A stretch of 64,000 bases of DNA, from assembly GCF_017115165.1 (NCBI RefSeq), contig NZ_JABXKF010000169.1, forward strand, positions 1 to 64,000, given 5' to 3'. Position 1 is the first letter of the stretch, and the number at the start of each line of letters is the position of its first letter. Shown one piece after another: positions 29,094 to 46,741 of the stretch. The stretch is from Nostoc sp. LPT. Lineage in GTDB: Bacteria; Cyanobacteriota; Cyanobacteriia; Cyanobacteriales; Nostocaceae. Below the pieces are notes generated by a model. It saw nothing but the letters and a program-made list of their open reading frames with translations. It was not told where the DNA came from and made no database searches. The translations under genes were made by a program, and so were the position numbers.

Positions 29094-29537
29094 TAAGAAC
29101 GGCAGGAATTGATTGATGGGCGTTGTTGTGAATTTCCCAGCATACATCCGGCGAATGTGGGACACCCTTATCGATATCTATATATAGGTGCGGCTCATGC
29201 AAACACTGGTAATGCTCCCTTACAAGCATTGTTGAAAATTGATTTAGAGTTTGGAGAAAGACAACTTTGGAGTGCTGCACCCCGTGGTTTTGTAAGTGAA
29301 CCGATTTTTGTCCCACGCCCAGATTCTGAAAAGGAAGATGCTGGTTGGATATTAGCTTTGGTTTATGATGCTGCCGATCACCGCTCAGATTTGGTAATTT
29401 TGGATGCTGGTGATTTCTCTAAAGGAGCGATGTCTGACGACAAGTCGCTTCGCGCCTACGCGCGGCTACATCTGAAGCATCATATCCCTTATGGTCTGCA
29501 TGGGAGCTTTACTTCTGAGGTTTTTGTGAAAGTTTGA
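29094..29537 (+). pseudogene. Carotenoid oxygenase C-terminal remnant with SDR insertion
   Basis: The frame matches only the C-terminal third of a carotenoid cleavage dioxygenase: CEFPSIHPANVG, YRYLYIGAAHANTGNAPLQA, RGFVSEPIFVPRP, ILALVYDAADHRSDLVILDA and HHIPYGLHGSFTSEVF. A TAA lies just upstream, and the catalytic propeller with most iron-binding histidines is missing. A TTG at 29109 is the first possible start, so the remnant could still be translated. Residues SDDKSLRAY are encoded by a 27-bp insertion (29432-29458). Without it the frame would read GAIARLHLKHH. Confidence 0.78.
29432..29458. repeat. 27-bp SDR-like insertion in the carotenoid oxygenase remnant
   Basis: The segment from GCGATGTCTGACGACAAG to GCCTACGC aligns with the dispersed repeat at 17542-17570. 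Removing 27 bases would restore GCGAT+CGCGCGG, an intact HIP1 octamer and a conserved protein sequence. The insertion length is a multiple of three. Confidence 0.6.
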
Positions 29538-41060: not shown

Positions 41061-41732
41061 CTACCATTGAGGTGCTGAGGTGAGCAACTCAAGAGCCAGT
41101 TGCTGTTTTATGGGTTTAGAAAATAAATATCCTTGAGCAAAATTACAGTTTAAACTTCTCAATTGGGCTAACTGTTCTTGTGTTTCGACACCTTCAGCGA
41201 TCGCACTCATCCCCATTGAGTTGGCAATGCCAATCATTGCTGGTACTAACCCCATATTTTCTTTGTTCTCCTGCATCCGTTTGACGAAGGATTTATCAAT
41301 TTTGAGTGCATTTAAAGGAAAGCTGTGCAGGTAACTCAAAGAGGAAAATCCTGTACCAAAGTCATCCATAATCAACTTGATTTTTCGCTGCTTTAGTTGT
41401 TGAAGAATTATTTTTATTGCATCTGTATTTTCCATGATTACACTTTCAGTAATTTCTAATTCTAAATATGCCGGATTTATTTTATTTTCATAAATTATTT
41501 GGTCAATTTGTTCTACAAAATTCGGCTGTAAAAATAATCTTGCACTCAAATTGACACTCATAGTTAGAGGTTCTGGTGTCACTGGATAATGTTGCCAGAT
41601 GCTTAATTGATGACAAGCTGACTGTAATACCCAAGTATTGATGACATTAATTAAACCCGTTTCTTCGGCCACAGGAATAAATTCTATGGGAGAAACCAAA
41701 CCCCGAATCGGATGTTGCCAGCGCACCAAGGC
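41061..41732 (-). pseudogene. EAL-domain half separated from its gene by a stop codon
   Basis: This is the in-frame continuation of the REC-GGDEF gene beyond a TAA at 41733-41735. It encodes an almost complete c-di-GMP phosphodiesterase domain: ALVRWQHPIRGLVSPIEFIP, LELEITESVIMEN, IIMDDFGTGFSSLSYLHSFP-like text (seen as LIMDDFGTGFSSLSYL), LKIDKSFVKRM and AIAEGVETQEQL. The stop replaces the Glu of the E-A-L motif, a metal ligand. A TTG (41727-41729) could start a separate EAL product, but it would lack the first motif residues. Readthrough, fission or decay are all possible. Confidence 0.78.
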
Positions 41733-42896
41733 TTAAAATCCAGAAATTCTACCTGTAGCCAGGGAAATAATTGGCTGATAGTAAACCAGGAATTCTTGCC
41801 TTCCAACAGCCCTCCGCAAGTCATTTTCTAACTCTAAAAGCTGAATAGCTTGCTGATGCATCGCTGGATTAAAAACGTGATATTTGGCTCTTCCTTGAGC
41901 CTTAGCTCGATACATTGCAGTATCAGCATCCCGCAGCAAATACTCTGGACGATCATAATCTTTATTGCCCCAACTAATCCCAATACTGGCATTCATAAAT
42001 ACTTCATATCTTGACAGTTGAAAAGCAAGTGATAGCTGTTGCAAAATCCTTTCGGCAACTTGGATTGCTATATTGATATCTGTGATATTCTCTAGGAGAA
42101 TTCCAAATTCATCCCCGCCTAATCGTGCTAAAGTATCACCAGGTATTAGACATGCTTGTAAGCGGTGAGCAATGGATATCAGCAATTCATCTCCCACCGG
42201 ATGACCAAGAGAATCATTAATAACTTTGAAGCGATCACAGTCCAAAAAAAGTACCGCAAACTGATAATTAGATTCTTGCTTGGCGCGATTGAGAGCATTT
42301 TCTAATCGCCGAATAAACAAAACTCGGTTTGATAATCCAGTTAGGGAATCATGCAGTGCTATATCTAGCAGTTGACTTTGCAATTGCTGGCGGGAATCGA
42401 TTTCTTGCTGGAGTTTTTGGAGAGTTTTTTCTAGCTCCCCAGTTCGCTGTTTTACCCGATCTTCAAGTTCAGCATTTAGTTTCAATATTTCTAATCGCGC
42501 CGATCTCAATGCCAGCTGATTTTGCACGCGCACTAAAACTTCTTGAAACTCAAAAGGTTTGGTGATGTAGTCTACACCACCCACTTTAAAAGCTTTAACT
42601 TTGTCAAAAACATCATCTAAAGCGCTAATAAAAATTATTGGAATATCGGCTGTTAGCTCCCAAGCTTTAAAGGTCTGGCAAATTTCATACCCATCTACTT
42701 CTGGCATCATGATATCGAGTAGAATCAAATCAGGTAATAATGTTTGAGTTGCTGTCAGTGCCATTTGCCAGTTCAAAGCTTTACGAACGTTATACCCTTC
42801 CCTTGTCAATATGGAGGATAAAACCCGGAGGTTATCCGCCATATCATCAACGATCAAAATATCTTTTTTATTAGAGTCTAAATGCTCGTAATTCAT
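41733..42896 (-). CDS. REC-GGDEF diguanylate cyclase (EAL part cut off by stop)
   Basis: The 387-residue product has a receiver (DILIVDDMADNLRVL, LILLDIMMPEVDGY, ITKPFEF), a coiled coil, and a GGDEF domain with DSLTGLSNRVLF, VLFLDCDRFKVINDSLGHP and the intact active motif LARLGGDEFGIL. It should make c-di-GMP when phosphorylated. It ends FLVYYQPIISLATGRISGF, exactly before the EAL motif. Its ATG overlaps the stop of the upstream hybrid kinase (ATGA), so the two are translationally coupled and the kinase is its likely phosphodonor. Confidence 0.88.
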   Translation of the reverse strand: MNYEHLDSNKKDILIVDDMADNLRVLSSILTREGYNVRKALNWQMALTATQTLLPDLILLDIMMPEVDGYEICQTFKAWELTADIPIIFISALDDVFDKVKAFKVGGVDYITKPFEFQEVLVRVQNQLALRSARLEILKLNAELEDRVKQRTGELEKTLQKLQQEIDSRQQLQSQLLDIALHDSLTGLSNRVLFIRRLENALNRAKQESNYQFAVLFLDCDRFKVINDSLGHPVGDELLISIAHRLQACLIPGDTLARLGGDEFGILLENITDINIAIQVAERILQQLSLAFQLSRYEVFMNASIGISWGNKDYDRPEYLLRDADTAMYRAKAQGRAKYHVFNPAMHQQAIQLLELENDLRRAVGRQEFLVYYQPIISLATGRISGF

Positions 42897-45800
42897 TCTA
42901 AGTTTGTTGTAGTCAATTCCATGATTTTCTCAAACTGGTAGTTATTTGCTAAATCCCTGAGAACTTGGAAAACTTGAGCATTATCTGATGGAATTTGCTT
43001 GAGTAACTCTAAAATCAGTTCATCGCTACAGCTAGCTGCGGCATAGTGAACCTGTTGGAGCCACTCAGGTGACATTTGTGATAAATGCCCCAGGAGTTCG
43101 GCAACACTGACAAAAATCTGTGTAGCTCGATCGACAACTACTGTGTTTGTGGTTTCTACTTGATTCGTATATTTTAAACCCAGATGTTTGCTCAGTTTTT
43201 CCAATAATACTTCCTGTTTGAATGGCTTGCGAATAAAATCATCACAGCCAATGGACAAAATTTTCTGGCGTTCTTCCTCAAAAGCGCTAGCAGTTAGGGC
43301 AATAATGATTGTATTTGTCTGGGAGCTATCTGGCGTTGCTCTAGAGAAGTTATAAGAGGGAGCCAAGGCTGTTGGCATCCGTGATCGCAAAGTGGACGCA
43401 CCAGAAGCATCATTTTCTATCACACCACTTGTTTCTGGTGTGGAAGACTCTTTGCGTACAACTTTCAGAACCTCACCCTCGCCTGAATCGTTTAACTCTT
43501 CTGCAAGGTACTGGCTCCCCAATGATACCGGTTGTTTCAATTTTGGGAACCTCCGCGACGTATTGGCTGTCCCATGCCCGATTTCTCTAGCTTTAATAAT
43601 TCTTGTGGCTTCGTAACCGTCCATGACTGGCATTCGCATATCCATAAAAATCAGGTGTGGTTGCCAAGATTCCCAATTAGCGATCGCTTCACTACCATCT
43701 GTAGCTTCATTAACTTCAAAGCCTAGAGATGTGAGTATTTTAACTAGCAAGATACGGCTTTCTTTGGAGTCGTCAACTACGAGAATGCGGTATACTTTTT
43801 CACTAAGTGCTAAAGCTCTAATTTGTGATTTAATTTGGTTTATCGGGATTTCTCTGGGGCAAGTTAGAGCAATCTGAATATTAAAGGCAAATGTACTACC
43901 GACACCAGGCATTGTGCTGACAGTAATATCTCCTCCCATCAGTTGCACGTATTTACGGCTAATCGCTAAACCCAGTCCCGTCCCTTGTTGGAATTTTCTG
44001 CCGATTTCGGTTTGTTCAAAAGCCTCAAACAACAAGTCAAGTTCTTGTGGGGCAATACCACAGCCAGTATCTTGTACCTCGAAGATTAGGGATTGGGGAT
44101 TAGGGATTGGGGATTGGGCTGAAGAAGCAGACGGGTAGGAAGTATGAAGTAAGGGTGAAAACGAAAAATTCACTCTTTCCTCGCTCTCTCTAGTCCCCAG
44201 TCCCCATTGCCCCTTATCCCCAGAGGGGGCCCCGAGTTCCCCAGTCCCCAGTCCCCAGTCCCCAGCCCCCAGTCTCACCCGTAGCGTCACCCTCCCTTGA
44301 TCGGTAAATTTGATCGCATTTCCCAAGAGGTTGAGCAATACTTGACACAGTTTATTTTCATCTGTTTCTATGTATTTAGGAATATCTGGCGCACATTCAA
44401 ACAGTAATTCTAAATTTTTAGATGCAGCACGCAAGTGCAACATCTCTTCTAAGTTCTTCAACAAATGAATTAAGTCAAAGCTGCTGCAATTTAATGTGAT
44501 TTTGCCAGCTTCGATTTTAGACATTTCTAGAATGTCGTTAATTAATTTGAGTAGATGTTCGCCAGCACGATTAATTATTGCCAAGTTTTCTTGATGTTCG
44601 CTAGATAGCGAATAATCTCGACTCATGACTTGGGTAAAACCAAGAATGGCATTGAGTGGGGTACGCAGTTCGTGACTCATGTTAGCAAGGAATTCGCTTT
44701 TGGCGAGGTTGGCGGCAGCACTTCGCGCCGCTTCCCGAACAGCTGCTTGTTGTTCCTGTGCAGCGATTTTTTGCGATTGAATCAGTTCTTCTTGGGTGGT
44801 TTGCAGTTGCTCGATAACTTGCTGGAACTCTTCAGTACGTTTTTTTACTTGAGCCTCTAAGGTGCGATTGTATTCTGCTAATAACTTTTCTGTTTGTTTG
44901 CGTTGGGTAATATCAAAAAATGTGGCGATCGCAAAAGCCAGATTTCCCGATTCATCATAAATTGGCTTTCCTAAAATTTCAATGGGAGTAATCTTGCCCC
45001 AACGGCGAATTTCCATATCATCAACCCTGGTGCTTTGCCCTTGTAATGCCCTTAAAATCGGCAGGCGATCGCTGGGGTAAAGTTGATTTGTCCCGGCAAG
45101 GTAAGCTTGATATATCTCTGACAATTCTTTGACTTTAACTTCTGCGTAGACGCGTAGCGGTGAGGGGGTCGCAGTCTTGGCGGTTCCCGTCGATTGCGAC
45201 CCCCCGAACCCGTTGGCGCAGCCTCTCGTAGAGAAGGGCTTGTTGTTAGACATCGCTCCTTGACCGAGAATTTGCTGCCCAATCTGATTTGTATAATAAG
45301 GTTCACCTTCAGCATCGATGATAAATACACCTACCGGCATGGCTTCTAAAAATTGAGTTAGCTGACTCTGATTATGAGATAGTGCCTCATTTAAAACTTG
45401 CATTTGGGCATTCTTTGCTTCTAAAGTACTAAAAGATGCTTGGAGTTGCTTTGCCATAGTTTCAAATGATTTGGCTAGTTCTCCCAGTTCATCGGAACGC
45501 TGAATGTCTGGTATTTGCTCCCATTCACCTTCAGCAATTTTCTTCGCCGATCTGTTTAATTGTAAAATCGGCTTAATTACCCAACGAGCAGTCAAAATTC
45601 CAATTCTTGTAGCCACTAAAAAAGCAACTATGCACAGCAAAATAGTGATGCGGGTGTTGGCATTAATTTGCTCCATAAATTCGCCTTCGGGAATCACCGC
45701 CACAATCAGCCAATCTAAACCCAGTTCATCCTTCCAGCTTTTTACCTGCACAAAATAACGCATTCCATCGGCGGTAAAACTTAGCTGTTGCTTCCCCACA

Positions 45801-46717
45801 ACAAACTTAAGACTGCCAAAGCGTTCGATCAAAGACTGTGTTGTGAGTTTAATTAAAGGATTTTGACTATCTAATGCTGATAGACGTTTTCCTTTACCAT
45901 TAACGATTGTATATGGCGGCTCGCTAGTAGAAGAAGCCACTATTAACCCAGAACGCTCTAAAATAAAAGTTTTACCTGACTCTTTGATCTTTAACTTAGC
46001 TAAAAACTTACCAATTTGTGACAAGAGCAAATCAACACTAATCACCCCAATGAATTTGCGATTTTTATCGTAAACAGGATAGCTGGAAGATATGGATAAA
46101 ACTTCTGGTTTATCTTCCCATTGATAAATTTGACTCCAAACTCGTTTGCCTATCTTGACTGGATCTGTATACCAAGCTTCTACACGAGGATCGTAATTTT
46201 TGACTTCCTGTAAATGGCGGCGATTTCCTTGGTTGTCTGTAGGATAAACATAGAGTTTGCCTGTACCACGCTTGGCGCTAACTTCATTAATTAAGAGCTG
46301 GCCATTATCTAGACGCTCAACACCGATAAATTCACCTTTGGGATTGGCAAAGCTGTTGTAACCAACATTGAAAACCTGCATTTGTTTCCAAAAGTAATTG
46401 CCGGTGGTTTGAAAGTCCGAAAGGTTGAGCAAACCTAGCTCAATCGCATCTAAGTTGATTTGATTGATTTGCTTTGGGGTTGTTAAATAGCTATCAAGAT
46501 GCTGTTCAATGCGATCGCAGATTTCATTTTCTAATTGAGTAGCAAGCTCTTTTACTGCTTTTTGGCCGTTTTGATAGGAAAGATAGCCCACAAGTCCCAC
46601 GGCACCACAAATTTGCAAGATAAAGGGCACAATCAGAACATATCTCAGGGGCATCTTGGCATAAACTTTGCCAACTAAGCGATTAAATGATTTGACGGGC
46701 TGAAGTTTGGATAACAT
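42893..46717 (-). CDS. Hybrid sensor histidine kinase (Cache-HAMP-PAS-HisKA-HATPase-REC) with repeat insertions
   Basis: This is a protein of about 1,274 residues. It has an N-terminal membrane helix, a periplasmic dCache domain (AWYTDPVKIGKRVWSQIYQW, FIGVISVDLLLSQIGKFL), a second helix, HAMP (IKPILQLNRSAKKIAEGEWE), and PAS (FLEAMPVGVFIIDAEGEPYY). HisKA has NMSHELRTPLNAILGF, HATPase LLGNAIKFTDQGR and DTGCGIAP, and the receiver IFMDMRMPVMDGYEATRI with FIRKPF. A helical tail may be HPt-like, without a clear phospho-His. Three in-frame insertions interrupt PAS, HATPase and REC. I favour the ATG at 46715-46717; one at 46741 is possible. Confidence 0.88.
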   Translation of the reverse strand: MLSKLQPVKSFNRLVGKVYAKMPLRYVLIVPFILQICGAVGLVGYLSYQNGQKAVKELATQLENEICDRIEQHLDSYLTTPKQINQINLDAIELGLLNLSDFQTTGNYFWKQMQVFNVGYNSFANPKGEFIGVERLDNGQLLINEVSAKRGTGKLYVYPTDNQGNRRHLQEVKNYDPRVEAWYTDPVKIGKRVWSQIYQWEDKPEVLSISSSYPVYDKNRKFIGVISVDLLLSQIGKFLAKLKIKESGKTFILERSGLIVASSTSEPPYTIVNGKGKRLSALDSQNPLIKLTTQSLIERFGSLKFVVGKQQLSFTADGMRYFVQVKSWKDELGLDWLIVAVIPEGEFMEQINANTRITILLCIVAFLVATRIGILTARWVIKPILQLNRSAKKIAEGEWEQIPDIQRSDELGELAKSFETMAKQLQASFSTLEAKNAQMQVLNEALSHNQSQLTQFLEAMPVGVFIIDAEGEPYYTNQIGQQILGQGAMSNNKPFSTRGCANGFGGSQSTGTAKTATPSPLRVYAEVKVKELSEIYQAYLAGTNQLYPSDRLPILRALQGQSTRVDDMEIRRWGKITPIEILGKPIYDESGNLAFAIATFFDITQRKQTEKLLAEYNRTLEAQVKKRTEEFQQVIEQLQTTQEELIQSQKIAAQEQQAAVREAARSAAANLAKSEFLANMSHELRTPLNAILGFTQVMSRDYSLSSEHQENLAIINRAGEHLLKLINDILEMSKIEAGKITLNCSSFDLIHLLKNLEEMLHLRAASKNLELLFECAPDIPKYIETDENKLCQVLLNLLGNAIKFTDQGRVTLRVRLGAGDWGLGTGELGAPSGDKGQWGLGTRESEERVNFSFSPLLHTSYPSASSAQSPIPNPQSLIFEVQDTGCGIAPQELDLLFEAFEQTEIGRKFQQGTGLGLAISRKYVQLMGGDITVSTMPGVGSTFAFNIQIALTCPREIPINQIKSQIRALALSEKVYRILVVDDSKESRILLVKILTSLGFEVNEATDGSEAIANWESWQPHLIFMDMRMPVMDGYEATRIIKAREIGHGTANTSRRFPKLKQPVSLGSQYLAEELNDSGEGEVLKVVRKESSTPETSGVIENDASGASTLRSRMPTALAPSYNFSRATPDSSQTNTIIIALTASAFEEERQKILSIGCDDFIRKPFKQEVLLEKLSKHLGLKYTNQVETTNTVVVDRATQIFVSVAELLGHLSQMSPEWLQQVHYAAASCSDELILELLKQIPSDNAQVFQVLRDLANNYQFEKIMELTTTNLE
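43330..43590. other. In-frame insertion in the receiver domain
   Basis: About 85 residues (such as RRFPKLKQPVSLGSQYLAEE and SGASTLRSRMPTALAPSYNF) sit between helix 3 (IKAREIGHG) and strand 4 (TIIIALTASAFEEER) of the receiver. The sequence is low-complexity and matches no receiver element. Confidence 0.6.
44080..44285. repeat. STRR insertion in the HATPase domain
   Basis: GATTGGG/GATTAGG and CCCCAGT heptamer tracts (about 44083-44119 and 44232-44274) bracket unrelated DNA. They encode about 65 residues including GAGDWGLGTGELGAPSGDK, between strand VTLRVRL and FEVQDTGCGI. Confidence 0.85.
45138..45255. repeat. SDR insertion with hairpin in the PAS domain
   Basis: GGGGGTCGCA (45164-45173) pairs perfectly with TGCGACCCCC (45195-45204), followed by the CCGTTGGCGCAGCCTCTCG dispersed-repeat signature found elsewhere in intergenic DNA. 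Here it is translated as about 40 residues (such as GCANGFGGSQSTGTAKTATP) between NQIGQQILGQG and VKVKELSEIYQAYLAG. Confidence 0.8.
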
Positions 46718-46741
46718 TGTAGTTTTATTCTTCCCCAGCAT

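Follow-up and report, generated by a model that had tools for sequence, protein, structure and literature searches.

Three exposed loops of a working hybrid histidine kinase in Nostoc sp. LPT probably hold extra sequence that was gained by different routes. One loop, in the PAS domain, carries a small mobile element and repeats nested within it; one, in the HATPase domain, consists in its longer forms largely of short tandem repeats; and one, in the receiver (REC) domain, is an old insertion. The gene lies on the minus strand of the 64,000-nucleotide (nt) stretch analyzed here (contig NZ_JABXKF010000169.1, positions 1 to 64,000; hereafter the window), in an open frame of 1282 codons (42893-46741). 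Its start is probably the methionine at residue 9 (46717), giving 1274 residues, because many orthologue matches have a stop just upstream and their frames start at our residue 7. Pfam recovered dCache, HAMP, and HisKA domains along with HATPase_c and Response_reg domains that were each split, while PAS appeared as partial, split, and weak matches below the cut-offs. The combination of HisKA, HATPase_c, and REC identifies a hybrid histidine kinase, and histidine kinases ranked at the top of a Foldseek search with the predicted structure. By eye, the catalytic motifs are intact (SHELRTPLNAI, NLLGNAIKFT, DTGCGI, GTGLGLAI, VVDDS, FMDMRMPVMDGYE, and RKPF, whose functional meaning we take to be the usual one).

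A sequence-only reading of the window had proposed that repeats enter such genes as tolerated in-frame inserts, with PAS, HATPase, and REC each interrupted in a frame that stays open for about 1,274 residues. The open frame and the motifs were recovered as described, and the three interruptions reappeared as Pfam splits and as low-confidence stretches of the structure model. Open, in-frame repeats were found in PAS and HATPase, and not in REC. A single class for all three interruptions is ruled out, since the REC insert has no periodicity and is present genus-wide.

The PAS insert appears to be a mobile repeat of recent, strain-specific origin. Of 53 genomes of the genus, 48, counting this one, had a match to the kinase at E ≤ 1e-150. 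All 47 other matches were fetched, and 41 full-length sequences were aligned with the window to give 42 aligned sequences; five more, partial or broken, were read singly, and the 48th (L082) is a C-terminal part only. Forty-six sequences, the window among them, were informative at the PAS site, a count that leaves aside L082, which lacks the region, and L080, in which it is deleted. The element was present in 10 sequences and absent from 36, so that the insert-free orthologues sought by the sequence-only reading do exist. Empty alleles read GGAGCGATCGCAGAAG or a decayed form of it, and filled alleles have 27 nt placed between GCGAT and CGC. In other words, an empty HIP1 octamer (GCGATCGC) corresponds to a filled GCGAT-27 nt-CGC. 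The octamer is exact in 13 of the 36 empty alleles (10 of 33 empty aligned orthologues and three partial sequences). We call the element SDR5-type on the strength of this insertion rule alone, not by identity to the published SDR5 consensus.

The alleles form a series of increasing complexity. The 27 nt stand by themselves in L034, L037, L055, L071, L038, and L048; a second layer of 57 nt is nested within them in L035 (genome G007) and L045 (G044); the window has a third layer of 21 nt (TCTACGAGAGGCTGCGCCAAC); and L036 has a further 30 nt. Each of these lengths is divisible by 3. The perfect 10-bp hairpin noted in the sequence-only reading was confirmed in the second layer, pairing GGGGGTCGCA (45204-45195) with TGCGACCCCC (45173-45164), and the stretch that contains it folds more stably than all of 200 shuffled versions (z = -2.4). 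Nested SDRs were reportedly described by Elhai et al. 2008 (Genome Res). Stepwise nesting at the PAS site itself is not shown, as the composites are also found at other places and may have come in ready-made. An assembly artefact is not favored for the window allele, given that four genomes share layers 1 and 2 at the site.

These alleles suggest a simple mechanism. The 27-nt element would enter a HIP1 octamer (GCGAT^CGC) precisely, leaving no visible target duplication. Because 27 is divisible by 3 and the element is free of stop codons in the frame used, Ala-Ile-Ala would become Ala-Met-SNDKPLRVY-Ala. Elements that already bear nested repeats (57, then 21, then 30 nt) would insert in like manner, and the added residues are predicted to be translated.

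Most likely, about nine separate insertions have occurred at this one site within the genus. In a gene tree of 47 sequences made from the loop-free core, with L080 coded as empty, the presence and absence of the element called for nine changes from an empty root. Carriers have close empty relatives; L035 and L063, for example, are about 1.2% apart. Moreover, the PAS site is filled far more often than comparable sites. Among the seven HIP1 positions of the gene in the 42 aligned sequences, 8 of 18 instances were filled at PAS and 1 of 149 at the other six (Fisher, 3e-8), counting only filled or exact-HIP1 instances and thus leaving out L080 and 23 empty PAS alleles without an exact octamer; related sequences in this comparison are not independent, and in events it comes to about 8 versus 1. 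The single filling elsewhere is an antisense composite at residue 604 of L045. That gene (G044), on a short contig of 4,943 bases, has the composite twice, in opposite orientations and about 210 nt apart. The second, antisense copy, inverted relative to the first, could be an assembly artefact.

Two histories other than repeated insertion would also produce such a distribution. The element could have entered once in an ancestor and then been excised precisely many times, restoring HIP1. That would account for the junctions common to all insertions, for layers 1 and 2 being almost the same in four lineages, and for the exact octamers among the empty alleles. Yet a single gain needs 19 losses (38 tips) where nine changes suffice, the copies differ from their consensus by anywhere from 0 to 6 mismatches, unlike what one shared age would leave, and the eight outgroup sequences that are readable at the site have neither HIP1 nor element. 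We regard an ancestral insertion as improbable. Homologous recombination could instead have spread element-bearing alleles between strains, and layers 1 and 2 are indeed nearly identical in the window, G007, G044, and G009, though the genes differ by roughly 5-10%. However, the flanks of the window allele resemble near relatives (L050 on the left; L051 and L039 on the right) and not other carriers, so that recombination would have had to break off only a few bases from the insert at either end; almost identical composites are also present at other genomic places. Transfer of this kind seems rather improbable. Repeated insertion at one PAS codon is the simplest reading of these data and is the one we favor, although it is not proven.

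Several observations weigh against this account of recurrent, tolerated insertion. Repeated recent gain would favor a correlation between decay of the element and terminal branch length, and none was significant (rho 0.55, p 0.10). Two HIP1 positions lie within the REC insert, and all 21 of their instances are empty; therefore, tolerance of a loop does not by itself explain the PAS hot spot. In pairs of the window with L050, L053, and L039, the ratio of nonsynonymous to synonymous substitution rates (dN/dS) in PAS was 0.50, 0.27, and 0.31, above that of the core, and PAS constraint may have loosened in the window lineage. Insert-free pairs spanned 0.16-0.81 (e.g., 0.32 in L066-L069), and L045-L057 gave 0.20. 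Among the 45 kinase sequences readable as a whole, three are broken (G003, G046, and G050), G046 within the HATPase loop. Finally, the inserts are covered by few of the aligned sequences, and as this by itself lowers model confidence, the low scores of the loops are in part to be expected.

The remaining 42 of the 45 sequences are in one frame. In the same three window pairs, dN/dS of the core was 0.20, 0.17, and 0.17, indicating that the core is under purifying selection. The gene, to judge from these substitution patterns, is not decaying, which agrees with the earlier proposal of selection on the protein as far as the core is concerned and speaks against the decay that would have counterindicated it. 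Other irregularities are local: G010 has an in-frame deletion through PAS, and the contigs of G021, G031, and G006 stop at or near the HATPase loop. In G003, about 1.2 kb of sequence, probably a larger insertion, splits the orthologue (L081) at around residue 371.

The HATPase loop has a different history. The sequence-only reading had pointed to heptamers here, and the window has two arrays of tandem 7-nt units, with 5.3 copies in the GGGGACT arm and 5.0 in the other (Table 1). The search for orthologues without the insert gave a divided answer: the loop is present in all aligned orthologues, and what is recent is its length and the repeats it contains. Between fixed columns it measures 10-103 residues, with 26 lengths among 41 in-frame sequences, and even close strains differ in its sequence and length. 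Of the 18 HATPase loops that reach 60 nt, 14 were periodic (z > 3), as against none of 41 sequences for each of five other segments; the period is most often 7, 8, or 9 nt, with units of 8 and 9 nt seen in strains other than that of the window. Tandem repeats of 7-9 nt that slip and accumulate, joined in some strains by a dispersed repeat, would make the loop differ from strain to strain, and selection would remove most versions that break the frame. Along the coding strand of the window loop, a G-rich part precedes a C-rich one, which allows the RNA to fold back on itself (z = -2.5; one shuffle in 200 was as stable). On contig C83 of this genome, the HATPase loop of a paralogue shows a repeat-like expansion at the same place. 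In distant cyanobacterial hybrid kinases (L148, L131, L119, and L127), repeat-like peptides lie in the same HATPase or REC loops, which suggests that these loops may be general sinks for repeats.

The REC insert, which the sequence-only reading had grouped with the repeats, did not behave as one: none of 41 sequences showed periodicity at z > 3. It occurs in all 42 aligned sequences, with 54-96 residues in the 41 measured, and three Nostocales relatives have inserts of 70-130 residues that differ in length and sequence. For REC, therefore, the possibility that the insert is an ancient feature of all orthologues, named beforehand as a counterargument, largely applies. More distant homologues and paralogues, where both motifs were found (51 of 62), had 15 residues at the site in 31 of 51 cases. 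Across 54 close pairs, dN/dS was 0.52 in the insert versus 0.07-0.36 elsewhere. An old insertion would thus have become a fast-changing, genus-wide, and poorly constrained linker that is not repeat-like now.

The structure model, another check proposed from the sequence alone, places all three interruptions in long stretches of low confidence. An AlphaFold2 model of residues 455-1195 (60 sequences) had a mean predicted local distance difference test (pLDDT) score of 77, with values below 50 at 496-532, 830-874, and 1060-1139 and over four residues at 969-972. The PAS insert lies in a loop between the first two predicted helices. One could argue that the inserts are functional modules, serving interaction or regulation, and not just additions that the protein tolerates. 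The REC insert is kept genus-wide with a dN/dS below 1, and in another gene the SDR5 peptide is found in all 30 loci; but the HATPase loop changes in sequence and length between close strains, and none of the loops has a confident fold, which leaves this explanation quite unlikely. Less likely still is that the HATPase array is a phase-variation switch in which 7-nt slippage toggles the kinase off and on. A unit length not divisible by 3, the 26 loop lengths, and the frame broken within the loop of G046 would fit such a switch. Against it, the units are imperfect and of mixed length, the predominance of in-frame sequences argues for a constant need for the kinase, and G046 may be an assembly error. 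Tolerance may be the reason that the inserts persist, presumably without a large effect on signaling.

The SDR5-type element is not confined to the kinase. Copies were detected in 53 of 53 genomes, and none with a reversed-pattern control. This genome has 11 copies at up to 3 mismatches, at least 30 other places with the core of the 21-nt layer (40 of 147 candidates scored), and a three-layer composite at 91% (contig C8, 134424). Composites of layers 1 and 2, matching at least 77 of 92 nt, occur outside the kinase gene in 11 genomes. A second gene repeats the PAS pattern: on contig C117 (96876), the same element lies in the same reading frame within a protein that has a PAPS-reductase domain. 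There, 3 of 30 fetched loci were filled (this genome and two relatives) and 3 had an exact HIP1, the other 24 being too diverged or aligned on one side only. At another locus (C184, 8068; L171), the SDR5 peptide stands near the gene start in all 30 fetched loci, this genome included; the element can therefore be old, and this appears to be a retained case.

How often such insertions reach proteins was assessed in a nonrandom survey of 86 copies, which came from the window, from 11 loci of this genome, from the best locus in each of 30 genomes, and from 40 fetched places. GCGAT directly preceded 71 of the 86. Grouped by site, the copies make 67 clusters, and 30 of these lie in open frames of at least 150 codons, which were tested as genes for ten picked hosts, not chosen at random. 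These unrelated hosts include five histidine kinases, a nonribosomal peptide synthetase, a FUSC protein, and a TauD protein. Four of the kinases have the SDR5-type element and one (L200) the 21-nt repeat, in linkers or loops; in L314, the element is in the REC alpha3-beta4 loop, the same loop that is expanded in the window kinase. For HIP1 itself, the share of sites in frames of at least 150 codons was 270 of 307 around the kinase, 48 of 60 within the window, and 168 of 295 for a broader set, and coding insertions would by this measure be at most moderately depleted. SDR5-type elements thus often lie in coding frames, as predicted protein.

Among the 30 coding clusters, 16 are read in a AMSNDKPLRVYA-like frame and 1 in the second sense frame without stops; 5 are in the sense frame that has a stop in the consensus, and 8 are antisense. 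A protein-level preference for the AMSNDKPLRVYA frame (16 versus 1 among stop-free sense frames, p = 1e-4) was considered and dropped, because the HIP1 background behind it (99/104/51) came from repeated copies of the kinase neighborhood. With the background from other loci (94/44/30 of 168 coding sites), p was 0.02 (0.009 to 0.06 depending on the loci chosen). When both strands were counted, element frames (17, 5, and 8 of 30) matched the background. The coding frame of HIP1 and the stop codons of the element would suffice to explain the distribution.

Targeting of HIP1 by SDR5 is already known. In PMC4390886, which cites Elhai et al. 2008, SDR5 is described as inserting precisely between nucleotides 3 and 4 of HIP1, and the window junction is the same one read on the other strand. 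What differs is that the element here lies within open protein-coding frames, with about nine likely parallel insertions at one codon, some of them nested. Rickettsia palindromic elements similarly place palindromic repeats in frame within unrelated genes, but are about 150 bp long according to PMC10969869, whereas layer 1 is 27 nt and HIP1-targeted. Nostoc also has G-rich heptamers, GGGGA(C/T)T (Rehm et al. 2015, PMC4692102), of the same class as those of the HATPase loop, which in the window belong to the coding strand of a conserved kinase. We found no report of in-frame SDR5 protein inserts, or of parallel in-frame insertion at one codon, in the literature searched, which was without most subscription journals and without Elhai et al. 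2008 itself. The repeats are of known kinds, and the kinase appears to be an unusually clear and recurrent case of their becoming predicted protein.

With dozens of strains that have one coding gene either with or without a 27-nt mobile element, the movement of tiny elements and the uptake of repeat DNA as protein loops become directly testable. Tentatively, SDR5 may be a protein-compatible mobile element, stop-free in the commonest gene frame of HIP1, for which Ala-Ile-Ala in exposed loops serves as a recurrent entry port; the PAS loop would have been entered about nine times, and lengthening by nested repeats would diversify sensor loops. Loop differences among Nostoc kinases may be repeat debris, not adaptation.

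Table 1. Coordinates of the hybrid kinase gene and its interrupted loops in the window
Feature	Positions	Strand	Remarks
Hybrid histidine kinase, dCache-HAMP-PAS-HisKA-HATPase-REC	42893..46717	-	Probable start M at 46717; open frame to 46741
HIP1 octamer with the insertion, left half (GCGAT)	45252..45256	-	Empty allele GCGATCGC in orthologues
Layer 1, SDR5-type element of 27 nt, left 15 nt	45237..45251	-	6 orthologues have just these 27 nt
Layer 2, element of 57 nt inside layer 1, with the 10-bp hairpin; split by layer 3	45159..45236	-	
Layer 3, 21-nt repeat TCTACGAGAGGCTGCGCCAAC nested in layer 2	45212..45232	-	
Layer 1, SDR5-type, right 12 nt	45147..45158	-	
Right half CGC of the HIP1 octamer	45144..45146	-	
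HATPase beta-hairpin loop with heptamers	44084..44274	-	GGGGACT arm 44238-44274; CCCAATC/CCTAATC arm 44084-44118
Old insert in the REC alpha3-beta4 loop, modeled with low confidence and not repeat-like	about 43325..43576	-	

Elsewhere in the window, a second SDR5-type copy (29432-29461) is preceded by GCGAT and lies in a 146-codon frame. Downstream of the kinase (41061-42896), open reading frames named by eye as REC-GGDEF and EAL are parted by an in-frame stop near 41733, and this neighboring cyclic-di-GMP gene looks interrupted.
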